Assembly: GCF_001613545.1 (NCBI RefSeq)
Contig: NZ_BDCO01000002.1
Coordinates: 1,922,001 to 1,986,000, forward strand
Direction: 5' to 3'
DNA: 64,000 nt
Origin: Terrimicrobium sacchariphilum
Lineage (GTDB): Bacteria; Verrucomicrobiota; Verrucomicrobiia; Chthoniobacterales; Terrimicrobiaceae
The position numbers and the translations under genes were made by a program. How positions within the stretch are numbered: position 1 is the first letter of the stretch; every line of letters begins with the position of its first letter. Of the stretch, positions 343 through 40,215 are shown in pieces. The notes beneath the pieces were generated by a model, which made no database searches, was not told the origin of the DNA, and saw only the letters and a list, made by a program, of their open reading frames with translations.

Positions 343-361
343 CCTCCGGCCTGGCGGAATT

Positions 362-3300
362 TTAAGAACGTTTGGCGGCAAGCCGGATGATCGCTTCGGT
401 AAGGATGCGATTCAGGCTTTCTCCTGTAAAGGGTTTGCCGAGGAACAAGTCCATGCCCGCCTCGGTGCAGCTCTGCCGGTCAGCCTCTGAGACTCCTGCC
501 GTGAGGGCGACGATCACGGCTGGTGGGATCTGCCTCTCCCTTTCGAGCTGGCGAACATTGCGGGTCGCCTCCAGGCCATCCATCTCGGGCATGCTGACAT
601 CCATGAAAATGATGTCCCGATGGACACTCTTTACCAATGCGACGCACTCGGCACCATTGTTAGCGACGCCGATGGTGGCTGCGGTCTTTTCAAGCATTCT
701 GCGCAGGAGCTTTTGATTGAGCGGATTATCTTCTGTGATGAGGATTTGCATCCCTTTGGTCTGCTCCGCCATGTTGGAGTCAGAGTGCCGGGATGAATCG
801 TCGGCATGAGGGTTTTCTTGGACCGTTTGCACTGAGATACGTGCGATGAAAGTTGACCCCTTGTTCTCTGCGCTTCGGACTTCGACGCTGCCACCCATCA
901 GTTCGCAGAGGCTGCGTACGATGGTGAGCCCAAGTCCCGTGCCTCCATATTTGCGAGACAGGGAGGAGTCTGCCTGGGTGAATGGCTGAAAGAGCCTGCG
1001 CTGTTGGGCGAGGGATATGCCGATGCCAGTGTCGGTCACTGAGAAAACGAGCTCGCAGGTTCGCTGCGAAGGATTGTGAGAAGCATGGACACTGAGGCCG
1101 ACATGACCGTGATCGGTGAATTTCAACGCGTTTCCGATCAGGTTTCCCAGGATCTGGTTGATGCGCAGGGAGTCGGCGAGGACAGTCTCTGGCAACGACG
1201 TGTCAATGTCGCTGTGAAAATCCAGCCCGTGCTGTCTGGCCTCTAGCTCCGCTCCTCGGCAGATGCTCTCGAGGTGCCGGCGTAGATTGATCGGACGGAT
1301 CTCCAGGATCAGTCGACCCGCCTCGATACGAGACACATCGAGGACATCTGAGACCAATGCCAGGAGAAGACGGCTGCTCTGCTCCACGCTTCCAACGATT
1401 TCCTTTTGATCGGTTGAAAGATTCGTCTGCTTGAGGAGTGAGATGAAGCCGATCACGCCATGGAGTGGGGTGCGGATTTCATGGCTCATCGTGGCGAGGA
1501 AATCGCTCTTGGCTTTGTTGGCGCGTTCAGCCGCCTCTTTGGAGGCACGGAGCTGGGCATCTATCGCCTTGCGCAGAACGAGCGAACGGGCGACCGAGAT
1601 GCACACTTTCTTGCCGGAAAGAGAGGCGAGACTCGCATGCATCTCTACGGGGATCTTGGACGCATCCACCGACACGAGTTGAGTTTCATAAGTTGCGGAG
1701 CCTGTGGTCAGCACCTCGGCAGAGATCTGGCTGCTGCGATAGGAGGGCGAGTCTTCGAGGCTGCTTATCCGTCGTTGGAGCAACTGATCTCGCGATAAGC
1801 CGAGCAGGCGGCAGGCAGCAGAGTTTACATAGGAAAGATAGCCGGGCTGCCCGTCCTCGTCGAAGCCATGGACAAAAATCGGATCCCCGATCGCTTCAAA
1901 GATCGATCGATCATTGGCCTGCGCTTCGCTCAGGATACGAGCGGTCCGTTTGCTCTCGTCGATGTCCAGTACCTGGGACACGAAGTATTTTGGCCGTCTG
2001 TCATCGTCCCGGATGATGGAGGCATTGAGCAGCGCCCACACGATGTGACTGTCTTTGCGCACGTAGCGCTTTTCCATCTGGTAACTGGTGATCTCTCCGG
2101 CGATGAGTTTCCGGACATGTTCCAGATCGAGCTCCAGATCTTCTGGAAAGGTGATATCCTGGAAGGAGAGGTCAGTCAGTTCCTGAGCGGAATATCCCAG
2201 GAAGGTTCGCAGGGCGGAGTTTGTTTCGCGCCAACGTCCATCGAGTTCCACGATGGCCATTCCCACCGGAGAATGTTCCATGGCTTCCCGAAAGCGGGTT
2301 TCGCTTTCTTTCAACCGCGCCGAGTATATGCGTTCCGAAGCCATCAGGCGGTTGATCGAGGCCGCGAGCCGGGAAAACTCATCATTACCAGTCACCACAA
2401 GCTCTCGGGCGCCTGGTTGGGAAAGCTCCTGAATCTCGTTGTCCAGTTGAGCAAGGCGGCGAAGGACTGACCATTCGAAGATTAGGAGCGGAAGGACGAC
2501 AATGATAATGCCGCCGATAGCTCCCCAGAACAGGATGCGATTGCGAGCCGTTAAGGCTGATTCCAGAACCTCGACCGGGATGTCGACATCCAAGGCCGCC
2601 ACCATTTTGCCATCGAGCGTAGGCAGATAAAAAGTGACGGTGTCTTTCGCCTCGTCATGGCGGACAACTCGGATAGGCAGGCCGCCCATTTTGGTCGAGA
2701 GGACATGATGTTCGCGACTTGCGACATGTAACTCGGAGTCCTTGAGCAACTGGAGATTCCGAATGCGGATGCCGATCAGATCAAATGTCTGGTTCAGCCA
2801 CCCGATATCAAACCAGCGTCCGAGAACGACCCATTCAGGAGTCGGACCTTTCCGATCTATCTGCATGACAGGGGCCGCAGTCAGTAGCAGCAGCCGACCG
2901 TCATCCGAGATAATGCCCAACCTCGGACGATCAGATAGGATATCACTCGATGTGATGGTGTCGACGGCGACAGGGGAGAGCAGGGCGGAGCGGTTTGCTT
3001 CAGCCTTGAGCCAGCGAGTCGAGAGGAGTTTTTTGTTCGAGTCGAAGCAGATGACGACATCCTCACCTGTCGCGTTTTGGCCGAAGTCAAAGTGGTTGGA
3101 CAGATAGTCAGGATCGGACCCTCCAAGATATCCATAGGTCTTGGTCCACTCGGCGTATTTGCTGATGAGGAGAAGCTCCAGCTCTCCGATATGACGAAAC
3201 TGGATGGCAATACGTTCGATCTCCCCTTGGCGTAGCGATGACTCAATCGAGTCGAAGGTCGAGTGAAGTTGGTAAGACGTCAGCGCACTGCCGAGGAAAA

Positions 3301-3421
3301 CCAAAGCCAAGAGGATACCGCCTGCGAGCAGGAGGGTCTTTGTCCGTAAGGACTGCCGGAACCTGACTTTTGATTTAGCCAAGACGGTGTATACATAAAG
3401 CAATCCGTCAGGAAATTTCAC
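362..3421 (-). CDS. CHASE4-PAS-PAS hybrid sensor histidine kinase with receiver domain
   Basis: Membrane sensor kinase of 1019 residues. Order: transmembrane helix about 29-49; periplasmic CHASE4-like domain about 55-290 (EWTKTYGYLGGSDPDY); second helix about 296-318; HAMP-like linker to about 365; two PAS domains (about 375-490 and 505-615); HisKA with the phosphoacceptor His in MSHEIRTPLHGV (about residue 647); HATPase with N and G boxes (GNLIGNALKF, DTGIGI, GGTGLGL); C-terminal receiver with IIFMDVSMPEMDG supplying the phospho-Asp. It lies downstream of the arg operon on the same strand but behind a strong hairpin. The longest frame uses GTG at 3421, which coincides with the foot of that hairpin; a TTG 13 codons further in (MAKSKVRF) could be the real start. 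No separate response regulator is adjacent. Confidence 0.9.
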   Translation of the reverse strand: MKFPDGLLYVYTVLAKSKVRFRQSLRTKTLLLAGGILLALVFLGSALTSYQLHSTFDSIESSLRQGEIERIAIQFRHIGELELLLISKYAEWTKTYGYLGGSDPDYLSNHFDFGQNATGEDVVICFDSNKKLLSTRWLKAEANRSALLSPVAVDTITSSDILSDRPRLGIISDDGRLLLLTAAPVMQIDRKGPTPEWVVLGRWFDIGWLNQTFDLIGIRIRNLQLLKDSELHVASREHHVLSTKMGGLPIRVVRHDEAKDTVTFYLPTLDGKMVAALDVDIPVEVLESALTARNRILFWGAIGGIIIVVLPLLIFEWSVLRRLAQLDNEIQELSQPGARELVVTGNDEFSRLAASINRLMASERIYSARLKESETRFREAMEHSPVGMAIVELDGRWRETNSALRTFLGYSAQELTDLSFQDITFPEDLELDLEHVRKLIAGEITSYQMEKRYVRKDSHIVWALLNASIIRDDDRRPKYFVSQVLDIDESKRTARILSEAQANDRSIFEAIGDPIFVHGFDEDGQPGYLSYVNSAACRLLGLSRDQLLQRRISSLEDSPSYRSSQISAEVLTTGSATYETQLVSVDASKIPVEMHASLASLSGKKVCISVARSLVLRKAIDAQLRASKEAAERANKAKSDFLATMSHEIRTPLHGVIGFISLLKQTNLSTDQKEIVGSVEQSSRLLLALVSDVLDVSRIEAGRLILEIRPINLRRHLESICRGAELEARQHGLDFHSDIDTSLPETVLADSLRINQILGNLIGNALKFTDHGHVGLSVHASHNPSQRTCELVFSVTDTGIGISLAQQRRLFQPFTQADSSLSRKYGGTGLGLTIVRSLCELMGGSVEVRSAENKGSTFIARISVQTVQENPHADDSSRHSDSNMAEQTKGMQILITEDNPLNQKLLRRMLEKTAATIGVANNGAECVALVKSVHRDIIFMDVSMPEMDGLEATRNVRQLERERQIPPAVIVALTAGVSEADRQSCTEAGMDLFLGKPFTGESLNRILTEAIIRLAAKRS

Positions 3422-3456
3422 GCAAAAAGAGGAATTAACGCGATCCTCTTTTTGCG
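3421..3456 (-). terminator. 13-bp perfect inverted repeat after argB
   Basis: Perfect arms CGCAAAAAGAGGA (3421-3433) and TCCTCTTTTTGCG (3444-3456) with a 10-nt loop. It sits 16 bp downstream of the argB stop and reads as a terminator or attenuator of argCJB, although no clean U-tract follows. Its end touches the GTG start of the downstream kinase. Confidence 0.6.
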
Positions 3457-3472
3457 CGGCGGGAAAGGGAAC

Positions 3473-36182: not shown

Positions 36183-37049
36183 ATGAGCACAACCAACGAA
36201 CTCGCCTTGTCGCAGGAGAACGCGGTAGCCGCGCCTGCATCTAACCCTTTCGGAACCGCAATCGCTCATCGCGAATCGCAAACTACGCTTGGCGATGTTG
36301 AGCAGTCACGAGCTATTGCCGAGGTTCAATCGGCTATGGTGATCGCTAAGCGGTTTCCGCGTGACCAGAAAACCGCATTTGATGCGATCATGAACGCCTG
36401 CGACCGTCCGACGCTGGCAAACTCGGCCCTGTATTCTTACTCTCGCGGAGGGTCTGACATCACTGGGCCTTCCATCAGGCTTGCCGAAGCTTTGGCGCAG
36501 AACTGGGGGAACATTCAATTTGGAATCCGTGAGCTTGAGCAACGCGGTGGGGAATCGACCGTCGAGGCGTTCGCGTGGGACATCGAGACGAACACCCGGC
36601 AAGTGAAGGTGTTTCAGGTCAAGCACGAGCGCCACACGAGGCAAGGGGTGAAGCGTCTAACAGATCCTCGCGACATCTATGAACTCGCGGCAAATCAAGG
36701 TGCTCGTCGTCTCCGCGCCTGCATCCTCGGTGTGATCCCTGGGGACGTGACTGAGGCGGCGGTTGCTCGGTGCGAACAGACCATGAGCGCCAATGCGGAT
36801 TGCAGCCCGGCGGCGATGAAAAAGATGGTCGATGCGTTCGGCGAGTACAAAGTCACAAAGGAGCAAATCGAGAAACGAATCCAGCGCCGTCTTGAGGCAA
36901 TCCAGCCCGCGCAGGTCGTCCAGTTGAAGAAGATCTATGCGTCGATCCGCGACGGCATGAGCACGGCAGCGGATTGGTTTGAGATTGCCAAACCATCAGC
37001 GGTGGCAACGGAAAATCCGATCAATCCTTTCCCCGAGACGAAGGAATGA
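36183..37049 (+). CDS. Putative phage recombination (ssDNA-annealing) protein
   Basis: 288 residues. Central conserved-looking block AMVIAKRFPRDQKTAFDAIMN, ALYSYSRGGSDITGPSIRLAEALAQNWGNI, and REDIYEL-like DPRDIYELAANQGARRLRAC. A related block occurs in phage proteins encoded next to YqaJ exonucleases, which is the case here (overlap of 4 bp), followed by an SSB-like protein. Annealing protein is inferred from context rather than from a catalytic motif. Confidence 0.6.
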   Translation: MSTTNELALSQENAVAAPASNPFGTAIAHRESQTTLGDVEQSRAIAEVQSAMVIAKRFPRDQKTAFDAIMNACDRPTLANSALYSYSRGGSDITGPSIRLAEALAQNWGNIQFGIRELEQRGGESTVEAFAWDIETNTRQVKVFQVKHERHTRQGVKRLTDPRDIYELAANQGARRLRACILGVIPGDVTEAAVARCEQTMSANADCSPAAMKKMVDAFGEYKVTKEQIEKRIQRRLEAIQPAQVVQLKKIYASIRDGMSTAADWFEIAKPSAVATENPINPFPETKE

Positions 37050-37675
37050 CGATTTACGACCAGATCGAGCAGGGCAGCGACGAGTGGAAAGAGTTGCGCA
37101 AAGGCAAGCCTACCGCGTCGAGCTTCTCAAAGATCATCACGGCGGCGAAGGGCGAGCTTTCGAAGTCGGTTGATGGCTACATTAACAAGCTCATCGCGGA
37201 ATGCTTTTGCCCCGAGTGGGAGGACTGGCAGGGGAACTTTTTCACCGAGCGCGGGAAGGCTTACGAAGACGAGGCGCGAGAAGCGTTCCGCCAGTTTTCC
37301 GGACACGACGTGCGTAAGGTTGGGTTTTGTCTGTCTAACGATGGCGTAAGCGGGTGCTCGCCTGACTCGCTTATCTATTGCGACGGCAACCCGGTTGCAG
37401 GGCTGGAAATCAAATGCCCAGCCCCGGAAACCCATGTGGGTTACATCCGCGCCGGGGTGCTGCCAGACGATTATAAGCAGCAGGTGCATGGATCGCTGGC
37501 GGTGACTGGCCTGTCAGAGTGGCACTTTTGGAGCTACTTCCCCGGAACTCAACCTTTCCACGTTGTTGTAAGACCGGACGAGTACACGGCCAAACTCGCC
37601 GCCGCGCTGGAGAAATTTGTCGAGCTTTACAAGGCCGAGTACAGCGCCGCGCTCCCGAAGATCATTAAGAACTAA
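37046..37675 (+). CDS. YqaJ/lambda-exonuclease family recombinase
   Basis: 209 residues, PD-(D/E)XK exonuclease. TASSFSKII at the N-terminus, ERGKAYEDEAREAF (Glu about 69), GVSGCSPDSLIY (Asp 107), GLEIKCPAPETH (Glu 121-x-Lys 123) and YKQQVHGSLAVTG. Expected to process double-strand ends 5' to 3' for the partner annealing protein just upstream. Confidence 0.9.
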   Translation: MTIYDQIEQGSDEWKELRKGKPTASSFSKIITAAKGELSKSVDGYINKLIAECFCPEWEDWQGNFFTERGKAYEDEAREAFRQFSGHDVRKVGFCLSNDGVSGCSPDSLIYCDGNPVAGLEIKCPAPETHVGYIRAGVLPDDYKQQVHGSLAVTGLSEWHFWSYFPGTQPFHVVVRPDEYTAKLAAALEKFVELYKAEYSAALPKIIKN

Positions 37676-38245: not shown

Positions 38246-38395
38246 ATGGAGCGAGACCTAATCAACCTGTACGGGAGCGACGCAAAGGCAATGAACGCGC
38301 TGGACGGCATTGTGTCTGACGAGGCCGTGACGCTACGGGACGTTGCAGACTGCGACCTCGTGCGGGCCTGGAACTGGAGCAGATCGAAACTGTGA
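38246..38395 (+). CDS. Small phage protein
   Basis: 49 residues from ATG 38246 with GGAG upstream; an open extension overlapping the previous gene is rejected. Helical (MERDLINLYGSDAKAMNALDG), acidic. Its stop overlaps the methyltransferase start by 4 bp. Confidence 0.55.
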   Translation: MERDLINLYGSDAKAMNALDGIVSDEAVTLRDVADCDLVRAWNWSRSKL

Positions 38396-39267
38396 ACTAT
38401 TACAATGAGTTTGACCCTAAAGCAGCCGCTTGGCTCCGAGAGCTTATTTCAGCAAGACTTATTCCCTTTGGCGACGTTGACGAGCGATCTATCTGCGACG
38501 TTCGGCCCGAAGACTTGCGAGGATACACTCAGTGCCACTTCTTCGCCGGGATTGGCGGATGGAGCCGAGCCTTGCAACTTGCAGGATGGCCAGAAGATCG
38601 TCCTGTATGGACCGGGAGCTGTCCATGCCAGCCATTCAGCGCCGCTGGAAAGCAACTCGGGACAGCAGACGCGCGGCATCTCTGGCCCGTCTTCTTCCGA
38701 CTCATCGCCGAGTTCCGACCTACAACGTGCTTTGGCGAACAGGTTGCGAGCCGCCTTGGACGTGAATGGCTCGCCGGAGTACGTGCTGACCTGGAAGGAG
38801 TGGCCTATGAAGTCGGGTCCGCCGATTTGTGCGCTGCGGGCGTCAGTGCGCCGCACATCCGCCAGCGTCTTTGGTGGGTGGCTTACTCCAAAAGGATCGG
38901 ATGCTCAAGGAGGGTGGCAGGGGAAGGATTTGCGGACGACTCCGGGAGGAGGACTCAGAAAGTTGATAGATCAAGCGATGATTGCCGGCTGGCTTACTCC
39001 ATCAGCGAACGAGGATGCGGCGGGGAATTGGGGAACTGGAATGCAGGCGATGCTGGGAAGTCAAGTGAAGTTGGTTTCTGGGACAACGCAATCTGGCACC
39101 AATGCCGAGACGGGAAAGCGCGGCGGATTAGTCCTCAACCCGAGATTTTCCCTCTGGCTCATGGGCTACCCGGAAGAGTGGGCGTCCTGCGGGGAAGCGG
39201 CAATGCAATCGTTCCGCAAGAGGCCGCGGTCTTCATCAAATCGGCAGCGGAAGCAATCGGAGGATAG
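38392..39267 (+). CDS. DNA (cytosine-5)-methyltransferase, phage type
   Basis: 291 residues, frame starting with GTG at 38392. SAM motif I FFAGIGGWSRAL (about 50-61), catalytic motif IV GSCPCQPFSAAG (Cys 79 in PCQ), motif VI-like CFGEQVAS (Glu 116), motif VIII APHIRQRLWWVA, and motif X RGSGNAIVPQEAA near the C-terminus. Shorter than classic m5C enzymes (about 320-400), with a reduced target-recognition region. It could protect phage DNA from host restriction. The whole length is overlapped by a second long frame (38405-39283). Confidence 0.88.
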   Translation: MNYYNEFDPKAAAWLRELISARLIPFGDVDERSICDVRPEDLRGYTQCHFFAGIGGWSRALQLAGWPEDRPVWTGSCPCQPFSAAGKQLGTADARHLWPVFFRLIAEFRPTTCFGEQVASRLGREWLAGVRADLEGVAYEVGSADLCAAGVSAPHIRQRLWWVAYSKRIGCSRRVAGEGFADDSGRRTQKVDRSSDDCRLAYSISERGCGGELGNWNAGDAGKSSEVGFWDNAIWHQCRDGKARRISPQPEIFPLAHGLPGRVGVLRGSGNAIVPQEAAVFIKSAAEAIGG

Positions 39268-39283
39268 CAATGGGGTGGCCTAA
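38405..39283 (+). CDS. Long overlapping frame inside the cytosine methyltransferase gene
   Basis: 292 residues in the +1 frame relative to the methyltransferase, with no stop through its entire length. It contains blocks that I recall from phage hypothetical proteins: GLADGAEPCNLQDGQK (49-64), YVLTWKEWPMKSGPPICALR (126-145), GGWLTP (157-162) and LNPRFSLWLMGYPEEW (244-259). Either both frames are translated, or these recurring blocks are an echo of conserved methyltransferase DNA read out of frame in many annotations. I cannot decide between these. ATG 38405 has no clear Shine-Dalgarno. Confidence 0.4.
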   Translation: MSLTLKQPLGSESLFQQDLFPLATLTSDLSATFGPKTCEDTLSATSSPGLADGAEPCNLQDGQKIVLYGPGAVHASHSAPLESNSGQQTRGISGPSSSDSSPSSDLQRALANRLRAALDVNGSPEYVLTWKEWPMKSGPPICALRASVRRTSASVFGGWLTPKGSDAQGGWQGKDLRTTPGGGLRKLIDQAMIAGWLTPSANEDAAGNWGTGMQAMLGSQVKLVSGTTQSGTNAETGKRGGLVLNPRFSLWLMGYPEEWASCGEAAMQSFRKRPRSSSNRQRKQSEDSNGVA

Positions 39284-39794
39284 AGAGGTGCTGCAAATGC
39301 CGTTGGTTCTGGATGCTTGCTGCGGATCGCGCATGTTCTGGTTCAATCCGGCTGATGATCGGGCGGTGTTTGTCGATAAGCGCCGGGAGACTCATCACTT
39401 AAAGGACGCTTCGAGCAAGTGGGGCGGTCGAACGCTGGTTGTTGATCCTGACATCCAAGCTGACTTCACTGCACTACCGTTTGACTCTGAGAGTTTCGCG
39501 CTGGTCGTCTTTGATCCTCCGCACCTTCACCGGATTGGGAAAACTAGTTGGATGGCCCGGAAATATGGAAAGCTTGAGGGGGAATGGCGCGAGGCCCTGC
39601 GCAAAGGATTTGCGGAGTGCTTCCGAGTTCTCAAACCTGATGGAACGCTGATTTTCAAATGGAACGAACATCAGGTTCCAGTTTCGCAAATCTTGGCGCT
39701 TACACCGGAGCGGCCGCTTTTCGGAAACCGATGCGGTAAGCAGCAAAAGTCACACTGGATCGTTTTTATGAAAGGAGCCGAATCCAATGGGTAA
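39270..39794 (+). CDS. SAM-dependent methyltransferase with DPPH motif
   Basis: 174 residues, Rossmann-like. VLDACCGSRMFWF (motif I, about 13-25), DADIQADF-like strand 2 acidic segment, VVFDPPHLHRIG (catalytic DPPH, as in N6-adenine/N4-cytosine amino-methyltransferases), and VLKPDGTLIFKW. The target is unknown; phage DNA modification is likely given the m5C methyltransferase upstream. Overlaps the alternative frame of the previous locus by 14 bp and the next gene by 8 bp. Confidence 0.8.
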   Translation: MGWPKEVLQMPLVLDACCGSRMFWFNPADDRAVFVDKRRETHHLKDASSKWGGRTLVVDPDIQADFTALPFDSESFALVVFDPPHLHRIGKTSWMARKYGKLEGEWREALRKGFAECFRVLKPDGTLIFKWNEHQVPVSQILALTPERPLFGNRCGKQQKSHWIVFMKGAESNG

Positions 39795-40215
39795 CTACCC
39801 GTCAATATTGCACATGCAGAACGTGGCAAAGTGCTTGTCAGAAAAAGACCGGAAGGCGCTGAAAGTCCAGACTCGGGAGGAGGCTGAGCTTGCGTACGTG
39901 GCGAAGAGCGAGAAGGAACTGCAACGCAAGATAGAATCTCTCCTTAACCGTCGCGGCTATCGTCCTATCCGGCAGCGGATGGACCGAAAAAGCAACATAG
40001 CGGAGGGGATGCCTGACATTCAATTCTCGTGCTACGGGCAAGCGGTCTACTGGGAAATCAAGCTCCCTGGACGAAATCCCGACCCAGCGCAGAAAGAGCA
40101 GATCGCAGCGCTACTTACCGCCCCGAACTCCGCAGAGGTTCGCGTAATCCGGTCCTACCAAGAAGCCTTCAACCACCTTCAAGAACTCGAACGAAAGTAC
40201 AAACCGAAACAATGA
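39787..40215 (+). CDS. VRR-NUC nuclease
   Basis: 142 residues. The N-terminal half is helical and charged; the C-terminal half is the VRR-NUC core with EGMPDIQF (Asp 77) and VYWEIKLPG (Glu 90-x-Lys 92), the PD-(D/E)XK catalytic set. Phage members act on branched or replication-fork DNA. Overlaps both neighbours. Confidence 0.82.
   Translation: MGNYPSILHMQNVAKCLSEKDRKALKVQTREEAELAYVAKSEKELQRKIESLLNRRGYRPIRQRMDRKSNIAEGMPDIQFSCYGQAVYWEIKLPGRNPDPAQKEQIAALLTAPNSAEVRVIRSYQEAFNHLQELERKYKPKQ

Follow-up and report, generated by a model that had tools for sequence, protein, structure and literature searches.

The closest described systems are M.EcoHK31I, a two-polypeptide m5C methyltransferase for YGGCCR, and M.AquI, a split m5C methyltransferase for CYCGRG. 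A 1995 paper on EcoHK31I is said to have placed the beta polypeptide in an alternative reading frame inside the alpha gene. As described in the accessible part of PMC3404938, the larger subunit of M.EcoHK31I holds motifs I-VIII and X together with the predicted recognition domain, the smaller subunit holds only motif IX, and M.AquI carries motifs I-VIII in one polypeptide and motifs IX-X in its beta. M.EcoHK31I is termed naturally split in an excerpt of PMC3439449, and an excerpt of PMC6174562 gives X82231 as its sequence accession. Out-of-frame coding in a phage methylase gene, as in the window analysed here, also appears in the accessible text of PMC11855218 on ShiLan-type hidden HNH insertions, but there the HNH is a mobile and patchily distributed insertion, whereas the frame in our window is conserved. 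The principle of a two-frame split m5C methyltransferase is already known. Our searches of the open literature, with most subscription papers outside them, returned no description of the overlap in phage methyltransferases; what we did not find described, and report as new, is how widely it occurs in phages, how strong the constraint is when measured, which intermediate forms exist and that the recognition part probably lies in beta. The two-frame methyltransferase arrangement is rare but known, and turns out to be common in phages.

The locus studied here lies in a window of 64,000 nucleotides, the whole stretch of DNA that was analysed, and is very probably a dual-coding prophage gene whose products are the two subunits of an m5C DNA methyltransferase, with alpha as the catalytic subunit and beta as the small-domain part. 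In the ORF list of the window, the methyltransferase ORF, alpha, occupies 38392-39267 on the + strand and encodes 291 amino acids from a GTG start; it was recognised as the catalytic frame from the ORF, Pfam, PHROGs and an AF2 model nearest to M.HhaI. The second ORF, beta, occupies 38405-39283 (+) and encodes 292 amino acids, counted as an open frame from the ATG at 38405. It is offset by 13 nt from alpha, which places it in the +1 frame, and was recognised from the ORF, PHROGs, shuffles and wobble constraint. An earlier sequence-only reading of this DNA had described a +1 frame open for 292 codons through the m5C methyltransferase, which these coordinates bear out, and both of the peptide blocks that it quoted are present in the +1 ORF.

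Alpha matched PF00145 over residues 73-168 only (E 6e-11) in the Pfam search and phrog_363 (E 1.8e-75) in the PHROGs profile search. The homology search that the sequence-only reading had proposed for the 292-residue frame was productive: beta matched phrog_1008 over residues 46-264 (E 1.2e-22), and tblastn with beta matched 190 of 50,697 phage records, 108 of them at a query coverage of at least 80%. Both PHROGs are labelled DNA methyltransferase, and the entries are silent on an overlap or on one shared enzyme. Searches of Pfam and NCBIfam with beta returned zero families at E <= 1. The neighbours of the locus are phage-like, with an exonuclease at 37046-37675 and an endonuclease at 39787-40215. 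The end of the beta ORF contains the start of a further methyltransferase, which belongs to a different family (39270-39794; phrog_954, E 3.8e-74). No further copy of the alpha/beta locus was found on searching the window's own genome.

Alignment of alpha to a profile of 16 single-chain enzymes covered motifs II-III and IV-VIII over aa 5-164 (Prob 99.3). Motif I, FAGIGGW (aa 51-57; 38542-38562, +), was placed by alignment after a motif II/III-like segment (about aa 5-44), with aa 51-65 matching canonical motif I as a separate, out-of-order and weak piece (E 0.0013, Prob 18). Sequence and alignment both identify motif IV, GSCPCQPFS (aa 75-83; 38614-38640, +), and alignment places GEQV (aa 115-118; 38734-38745, +) at the position of motif VI, canonically ENV, and APHIRQRLWW (aa 153-162; 38848-38877, +) as motif VIII. 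Motif X, GSGNAIVPQ (aa 268-276; 39193-39219, +), was assigned by a weak alignment, in which aa 265-291 matched canonical motif X as a separate piece (E 0.0044, Prob 8). No part of alpha aligned to motif IX or the recognition domain of the 16-enzyme single-chain profile. Motifs I, IV, VI, VIII and X and an AdoMet fold, by which an m5C methyltransferase is known, were found in alpha, with VI as GEQV and I permuted.

The AF2 model of alpha, built with 90 sequences, has a mean pLDDT of 78, with blocks of 75-98 over aa 1-170 and 86-96 over aa 271-290. Low-confidence blocks cover aa 171-230 (38902-39081, +; pLDDT 42-50), the expected place of the target-recognition domain, and aa 251-270 (46-52). 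The nearest PDB chain is M.HhaI (Z 15.8, rmsd 2.8, 169 aligned) and the next is M.HaeIII (Z 13.7), both single-chain enzymes sharing the catalytic fold with the alpha model; unlike them, alpha has motif I behind II-III, and neither motif IX nor a recognition domain was found in it. Because motif IX and the recognition domain are without alignment and the model is poor at aa 171-230 and 251-270, alpha was not counted as a complete enzyme. As modelled, it is an AdoMet-binding catalytic domain without a confidently modelled small domain. The permutation itself, in which FAGIGG stands behind a II/III-like YNExDP...GDVDERS in alpha aa 1-83 (38392-38640) and in relatives, departs from the canonical order I-II-III-IV, and it too was without description in searches aimed at the overlap. 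The usual motif order is kept in other alpha types (L305, L306, L271).

Beta has a conserved core at aa 102-148 (38708-38848, +), with the sequence ...LTWK...PICALRAS... and a helix-strand-strand arrangement; it is kept in what we label A3/A4, and the beta model, with a mean pLDDT of 60, is better over this part (block pLDDT 76-91 over aa 101-150). A structure search of the PDB with this model gave zero matches at E <= 0.001 (best E 0.6, best Z 3.9), and a profile search of PDB sequences with beta gave no match at E <= 1. Further along, sequence, profile comparison and residue conservation mark a motif IX-like block, LNPRFSLWLMGYPEEW (aa 244-259; 39134-39181, +), which resembles motif IX of single-chain enzymes such as RRLTPRECARLMGYPETY (L277). 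Direct comparison of the window-type beta with the canonical motif IX profile was weak (E 0.036 in one comparison, Prob 1.4, 8 columns; reversed control E 0.92). The window-type beta aligns to the beta of a type from Streptomyces and Mycobacterium phages (Prob 96.7, 139 columns), and the C-terminus of that beta matches canonical motifs IX-X in order (E 1.1e-4, Prob 56). In addition, a different alpha, L260, is matched at its motif X end (E 4.3e-4) by the closing positions of phrog_1008 (291-320). Beta thus has a motif IX-like block, and target recognition probably lies in it as well.

Compared by description, the window is like M.EcoHK31I in that motifs I-VIII and X lie in alpha and beta lies in an alternative frame, the latter reportedly so in EcoHK31I. 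The two differ in that the accessible description of M.EcoHK31I puts the predicted recognition domain in its alpha, whereas the window alpha model is without a confidently folded one, and the window beta is a long frame of 292 codons. The window also differs from M.AquI, as far as the available account of that enzyme goes, in having motif X in alpha and not in beta.

Related loci were collected with two search profiles, one from 10 +1 proteins and one from 9 methyltransferases. Viral-contig loci were fetched through the +1 frame (best 80 of 569 relatives) and through methyltransferase motifs alone (best 80 of 596), bacterial-genome loci were fetched through the +1 frame (best 80 of 231), and three scans for other types took the best 80 of 560, 579 and 355 relatives; these best-80 sets under-sample distant relatives. 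ORFs matching both profiles were present at 249 of 249 loci, which are best-scoring rows and not independent, some contigs appearing twice and two being the window itself. The best alpha/beta pair overlaps at the +1 offset in 247 of these best-scoring rows, and the remaining two are one contig fetched twice, where both tandem copies overlap at +1. One viral contig (L031, about 347-3469) carries two tandem dual-frame methyltransferase copies.

Over the window methyltransferase segment, the +1 frame has a single stop, at the very start and upstream of the ATG at 38405, and an open run of 289 codons. One hundred synonymous-codon shuffles of the window gave a mean of 4.17 +1 stops and no stop-free sequence, and the +1 profile score of 332.5 bits compares with a shuffle maximum of 141.0. 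The wider shuffle set held 244 genes including the window, 181 of them non-redundant, with L003, L031, L043, L050, L108 and L215 left out; the locus found by both viral scans (L041) was counted with the +1-frame viral set. At 100 shuffles for each of the 181 non-redundant genes, the gene's own +1 score was reached by 0 of 18,100 plain synonymous shuffles, and likewise by 0 of 18,100 shuffles that kept codon context. The observed scores of the 181 genes had a median of 257.8 bits and a minimum of 113.5, and the highest shuffled scores were 177.1 (plain) and 199.2 (context-keeping). Shuffle tests on two further types gave 0 of 1,950 and 0 of 1,850, a weaker result than the 72-locus analysis below because those loci were chosen through beta.

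The position of stops follows the same boundaries. Among 178 aligned genes, with L154, L239 and L248 additionally left out for this and the wobble table, +1 stops per 1,000 codons numbered 23-82 in alpha codons 1-40, 0-1.1 per ten-codon block in codons 41-270 and 106 in codons 281-290. The set fetched through methyltransferase motifs kept 78 of the 79 loci L091-L169 (L108 out), of which 72 are non-redundant; a residual bias remains in this set, since the loci behind the search alignment had first been seen via the +1 frame, and since those in the set lie closest to the window methyltransferase. In these 72 phage loci, +1 stops were found at 137 of 2,783 positions in alpha codons 1-40, at 0 of 15,853 in codons 41-270 and at 60 of 1,177 in codons 271-288. 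As a control, 16 ordinary single-chain m5C methyltransferases of related genomes contained 4-31 +1 stops, with longest open runs of 42-199 codons, and none scored significantly against the +1 profile (best E 0.84). The +1 frame is a real gene and not an artefact. In L050, L154, L239 and L248, an in-frame stop splits the alpha match while beta stays open; these may be pseudogenes or sequencing errors. The frames apparently swap past mid-gene in L043 and L215, where profile matches to alpha and to beta fall in different parts of a single ORF.

Wobble positions of alpha provide further evidence. Across the 72 loci, the ratio of observed to expected identity at fourfold wobble sites was 1.10 in codons 1-40, 1.25-1.34 in codons 41-100, 2.51 in codons 101-130, 2.27 in codons 131-165 and 1.82 in codons 166-240, and the strongest constraint fell in codons 241-270 (39112-39201, +), at 2.79 against 1.10 in codons 1-40. 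In sequences keeping the codon box, single codons are frozen at GTT for V118 (72/72), CCC for P250 (62/62), CTG for L255 (50/50) and GCT for A256 (65/65), and P9 in the control region uses all four wobble bases (23/16/16/5). A comparable wobble-invariance table around motif IX of two other types was circular, the loci having been parsed by that motif, and is excluded from the evidence. The beta residues over alpha 255-258 and 260 are nearly constant (W 72/72, L 72/72, M 69/72, G 70/72 and P 70/72) while alpha varies there, with H, D, Y or N at 257 and P, S, T or A at 260, through first-base changes that are silent for those beta residues. This fixation of beta residues while alpha varies is evidence of selection on the amino acids of beta, and makes beta more conserved than alpha around alpha 255-260. 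A count of silent changes by column gave 0.996 observed against 0.591 expected, from four usable columns only; the control region offered none. Selection for amino-acid sequence acts on both frames.

Relatives of the locus show how the frames can be arranged. In the Streptomyces phages Euratis (gp33/34) and Samy (gp49/50), the main frame ends just past motif VIII and the +1 frame continues through motifs IX and X, a division over two polypeptides like that of M.AquI in the available description, with IX and X in beta. The annotated alpha/beta overlap is 32 nt in Euratis, none in Samy and 182 nt in Mycobacterium phage Camperdownii (gp76/75); the +1 frame is open further upstream within alpha, where it aligns with other betas. 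Their depositors named both genes methylases or methyltransferases, and Samy gp50, deposited as 'DNA methyltransferase domain protein', is related to phrog_1008. In Mycobacterium phage Rita, gp76 holds motifs I-VIII, beta-like LPTPxxxD repeats, IX and X in one chain, and a 153-codon +1 ORF persists, still with the core of beta. As a sign of artefact, the sequence-only reading had named homologues that exist only as overlaps of methyltransferases. That holds for all 249 loci (best-scoring rows) but not for Euratis, where about 186 codons of the +1 protein extend past the end of the methyltransferase ORF, nor for Rita, where the blocks are in frame with the methyltransferase.

Parsing of the collected loci gave the window type, with IX in +1 and X in alpha, at 184 of 238 loci (52 unparsed, 2 other; contigs partly counted twice). 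Two further types have the same arrangement at 44 and 42 of their best 80 loci, the rest being unparsed. Among the best 80 of the Streptomyces/Mycobacterium-phage type, alpha ends before X, with IX and X in +1, at 35 (38 unparsed), and the others were parsed as one chain (6) or as the same frame with a break (1). Both frames are annotated in Paenibacillus phage Leyra and coliphage K1ind2. The record of Xanthomonas phage FoX4 (L008, 1374-2214; MT161385) lists the +1 frame alone, as a hypothetical protein, and has no entry for the methyltransferase frame, itself open. Komagataeibacter phage phiKX1 (L003, 1374-3020) has an ORF that by eye is HNH-endonuclease-like, in another frame and near the methyltransferase end; the methyltransferase frame stays open over 548 aa despite this HNH-like insertion, which resembles the ShiLan-type hidden HNH insertions. 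A restriction-linked pair of the EcoHK31I kind was also sought, which gave a beta match in 23 of 295 genomes of one family. No restriction enzyme was recognised by eye in the long ORFs of four of these beta loci (L329-L332), and two inspected records, out of four E. coli records with a match, were surrounded by phage genes; neither set of inspected loci supplied an example of such a pair.

Across the region scanned, an ATG is present in the +1 frame of 172 of 181 genes, and 243 of 336 +1 ATGs lie at alpha codons 25-39. A start with a Shine-Dalgarno-like site was found in the +1 frame of 133 of the 181 genes compared with 35 of 181 in the +2 frame, a difference that is modest per start codon (173/734 against 39/266). 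The window departs from this pattern: its beta has only the ATG at 38405 and TTG codons as starts, with a Shine-Dalgarno-like site at none of them.

We propose that one message would give two separate proteins, alpha from the main frame and beta, presumably translated, from the +1 frame. Motifs I-VIII and X and the AdoMet-binding catalytic domain would come from alpha. Beta would supply the small-domain part, comprising motif IX and probably target recognition, and would then read the site; the recognition loops are placed in beta by analogy with the single chain of Rita. The two proteins may combine into a working methylase with a specific target site, with binding between them and a need for beta both expected in such an arrangement. 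Since no restriction enzyme gene was found among the window neighbours scanned with PHROGs, the phage would most likely use the enzyme as an orphan methylase against restriction. The second protein is best read as the other subunit of this methyltransferase: motif IX and a confidently folded small domain were not found in alpha, and in relatives the beta-like blocks occur together with motif X or in one chain with alpha. Against a split enzyme, Rita keeps a +1 ORF with the core of beta though IX and X sit in its methylase chain, and the accessible part of PMC3404938 assigns the predicted recognition domain of M.EcoHK31I to alpha, not beta. Also counting against it are the weak direct match of beta to motif IX, the low-confidence beta model with zero PDB matches at E <= 0.001, the missing Shine-Dalgarno-like site in the window, the short or absent annotated overlap in Euratis and Samy, and the four loci in which the alpha match is split by a stop.

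The sequence-only reading had left a choice between genuine dual coding and a recurrent annotation artefact. Its dual-coding option gains from the shuffles, the stop distribution, the frozen wobble bases and the constancy of beta residues, and the artefact falls away on a criterion which that reading itself had set, since substitutions at wobble positions are shaped by more than the methyltransferase frame. A passive open frame that merely accompanies the codon usage and conserved DNA of the methyltransferase, and is repeatedly misannotated, would fit the presence of a methyltransferase at every one of the 249 first-collected loci (best-scoring rows) and the inconsistent annotation of the +1 frame among records. 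It is nonetheless extremely improbable, and we rejected it on the shuffles (0 of 36,200 in all reaching the gene's own score), the stops and wobble of the 72 loci, the constancy of beta residues and the 16-enzyme control: the frame is stop-free only where beta is conserved, wobble bases are frozen there and not in codons 1-40, and the frame is absent from the 16 single-chain methyltransferases. Hardly any probability attaches, either, to a constraint on the DNA or RNA itself, such as a binding site or RNA structure; the near-invariance of wobble bases across alpha codons 250-260 would agree with it, but beta third positions vary while beta residues are fixed (the formal count covering only four columns), and the constrained stretch is about 170 codons long, with its frame kept open. 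In the columns that could be compared, changes silent in beta were clearly more frequent than changes that replace a beta residue, which is contrary to such a constraint.

Programmed frameshifting, by which both frames would be joined into one polypeptide instead of two proteins, would explain why the DNA runs through motifs I-VIII in the main frame, IX in +1 and X in the main frame again, the order that one chain needs. We regard it as very unlikely, as beta is constrained well upstream of any useful shift site (alpha codons 101-165) and the +1 ATGs and Shine-Dalgarno-like starts described above speak for separate initiation. A greater probability, still a low one, goes to beta being a true overlapping gene whose product acts independently, for instance in anti-restriction or regulation, and is not a methyltransferase subunit. 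No relative of beta was found in PDB sequences, Pfam, NCBIfam or by fold, and the 153-aa +1 ORF of Rita with the beta core remains where IX and X are in the methyltransferase chain, as an independent role would allow; yet alpha is without the part that the IX-like block of beta would supply, motif X lies in the Streptomyces-phage beta, and Rita unites the blocks in one chain. The two-subunit enzyme remains our preferred reading.

On a wider scale, we favour with some reserve the view that the dual-frame split m5C methyltransferase is old and widespread in tailed phages, with at least four types sharing the +1 beta and beta the more constrained frame around motif IX, and that mycobacteriophage single chains show the frames joined (or split), making the origin and direction of the overlap traceable. 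We know of few documented cases in large DNA phages of long same-strand overlaps with both products conserved. In this case the overlap signal is strong and repeated in several lineages, and the forms show how frames can merge or separate. There are also consequences for annotation: in FoX4 only beta is annotated, as hypothetical, and the methyltransferase frame is missed. Where a phage methylase of one of these types is annotated as a single protein, that protein is probably half an enzyme; if that reading is true, recoding the codons of the annotated gene for cloning would abolish the second subunit.
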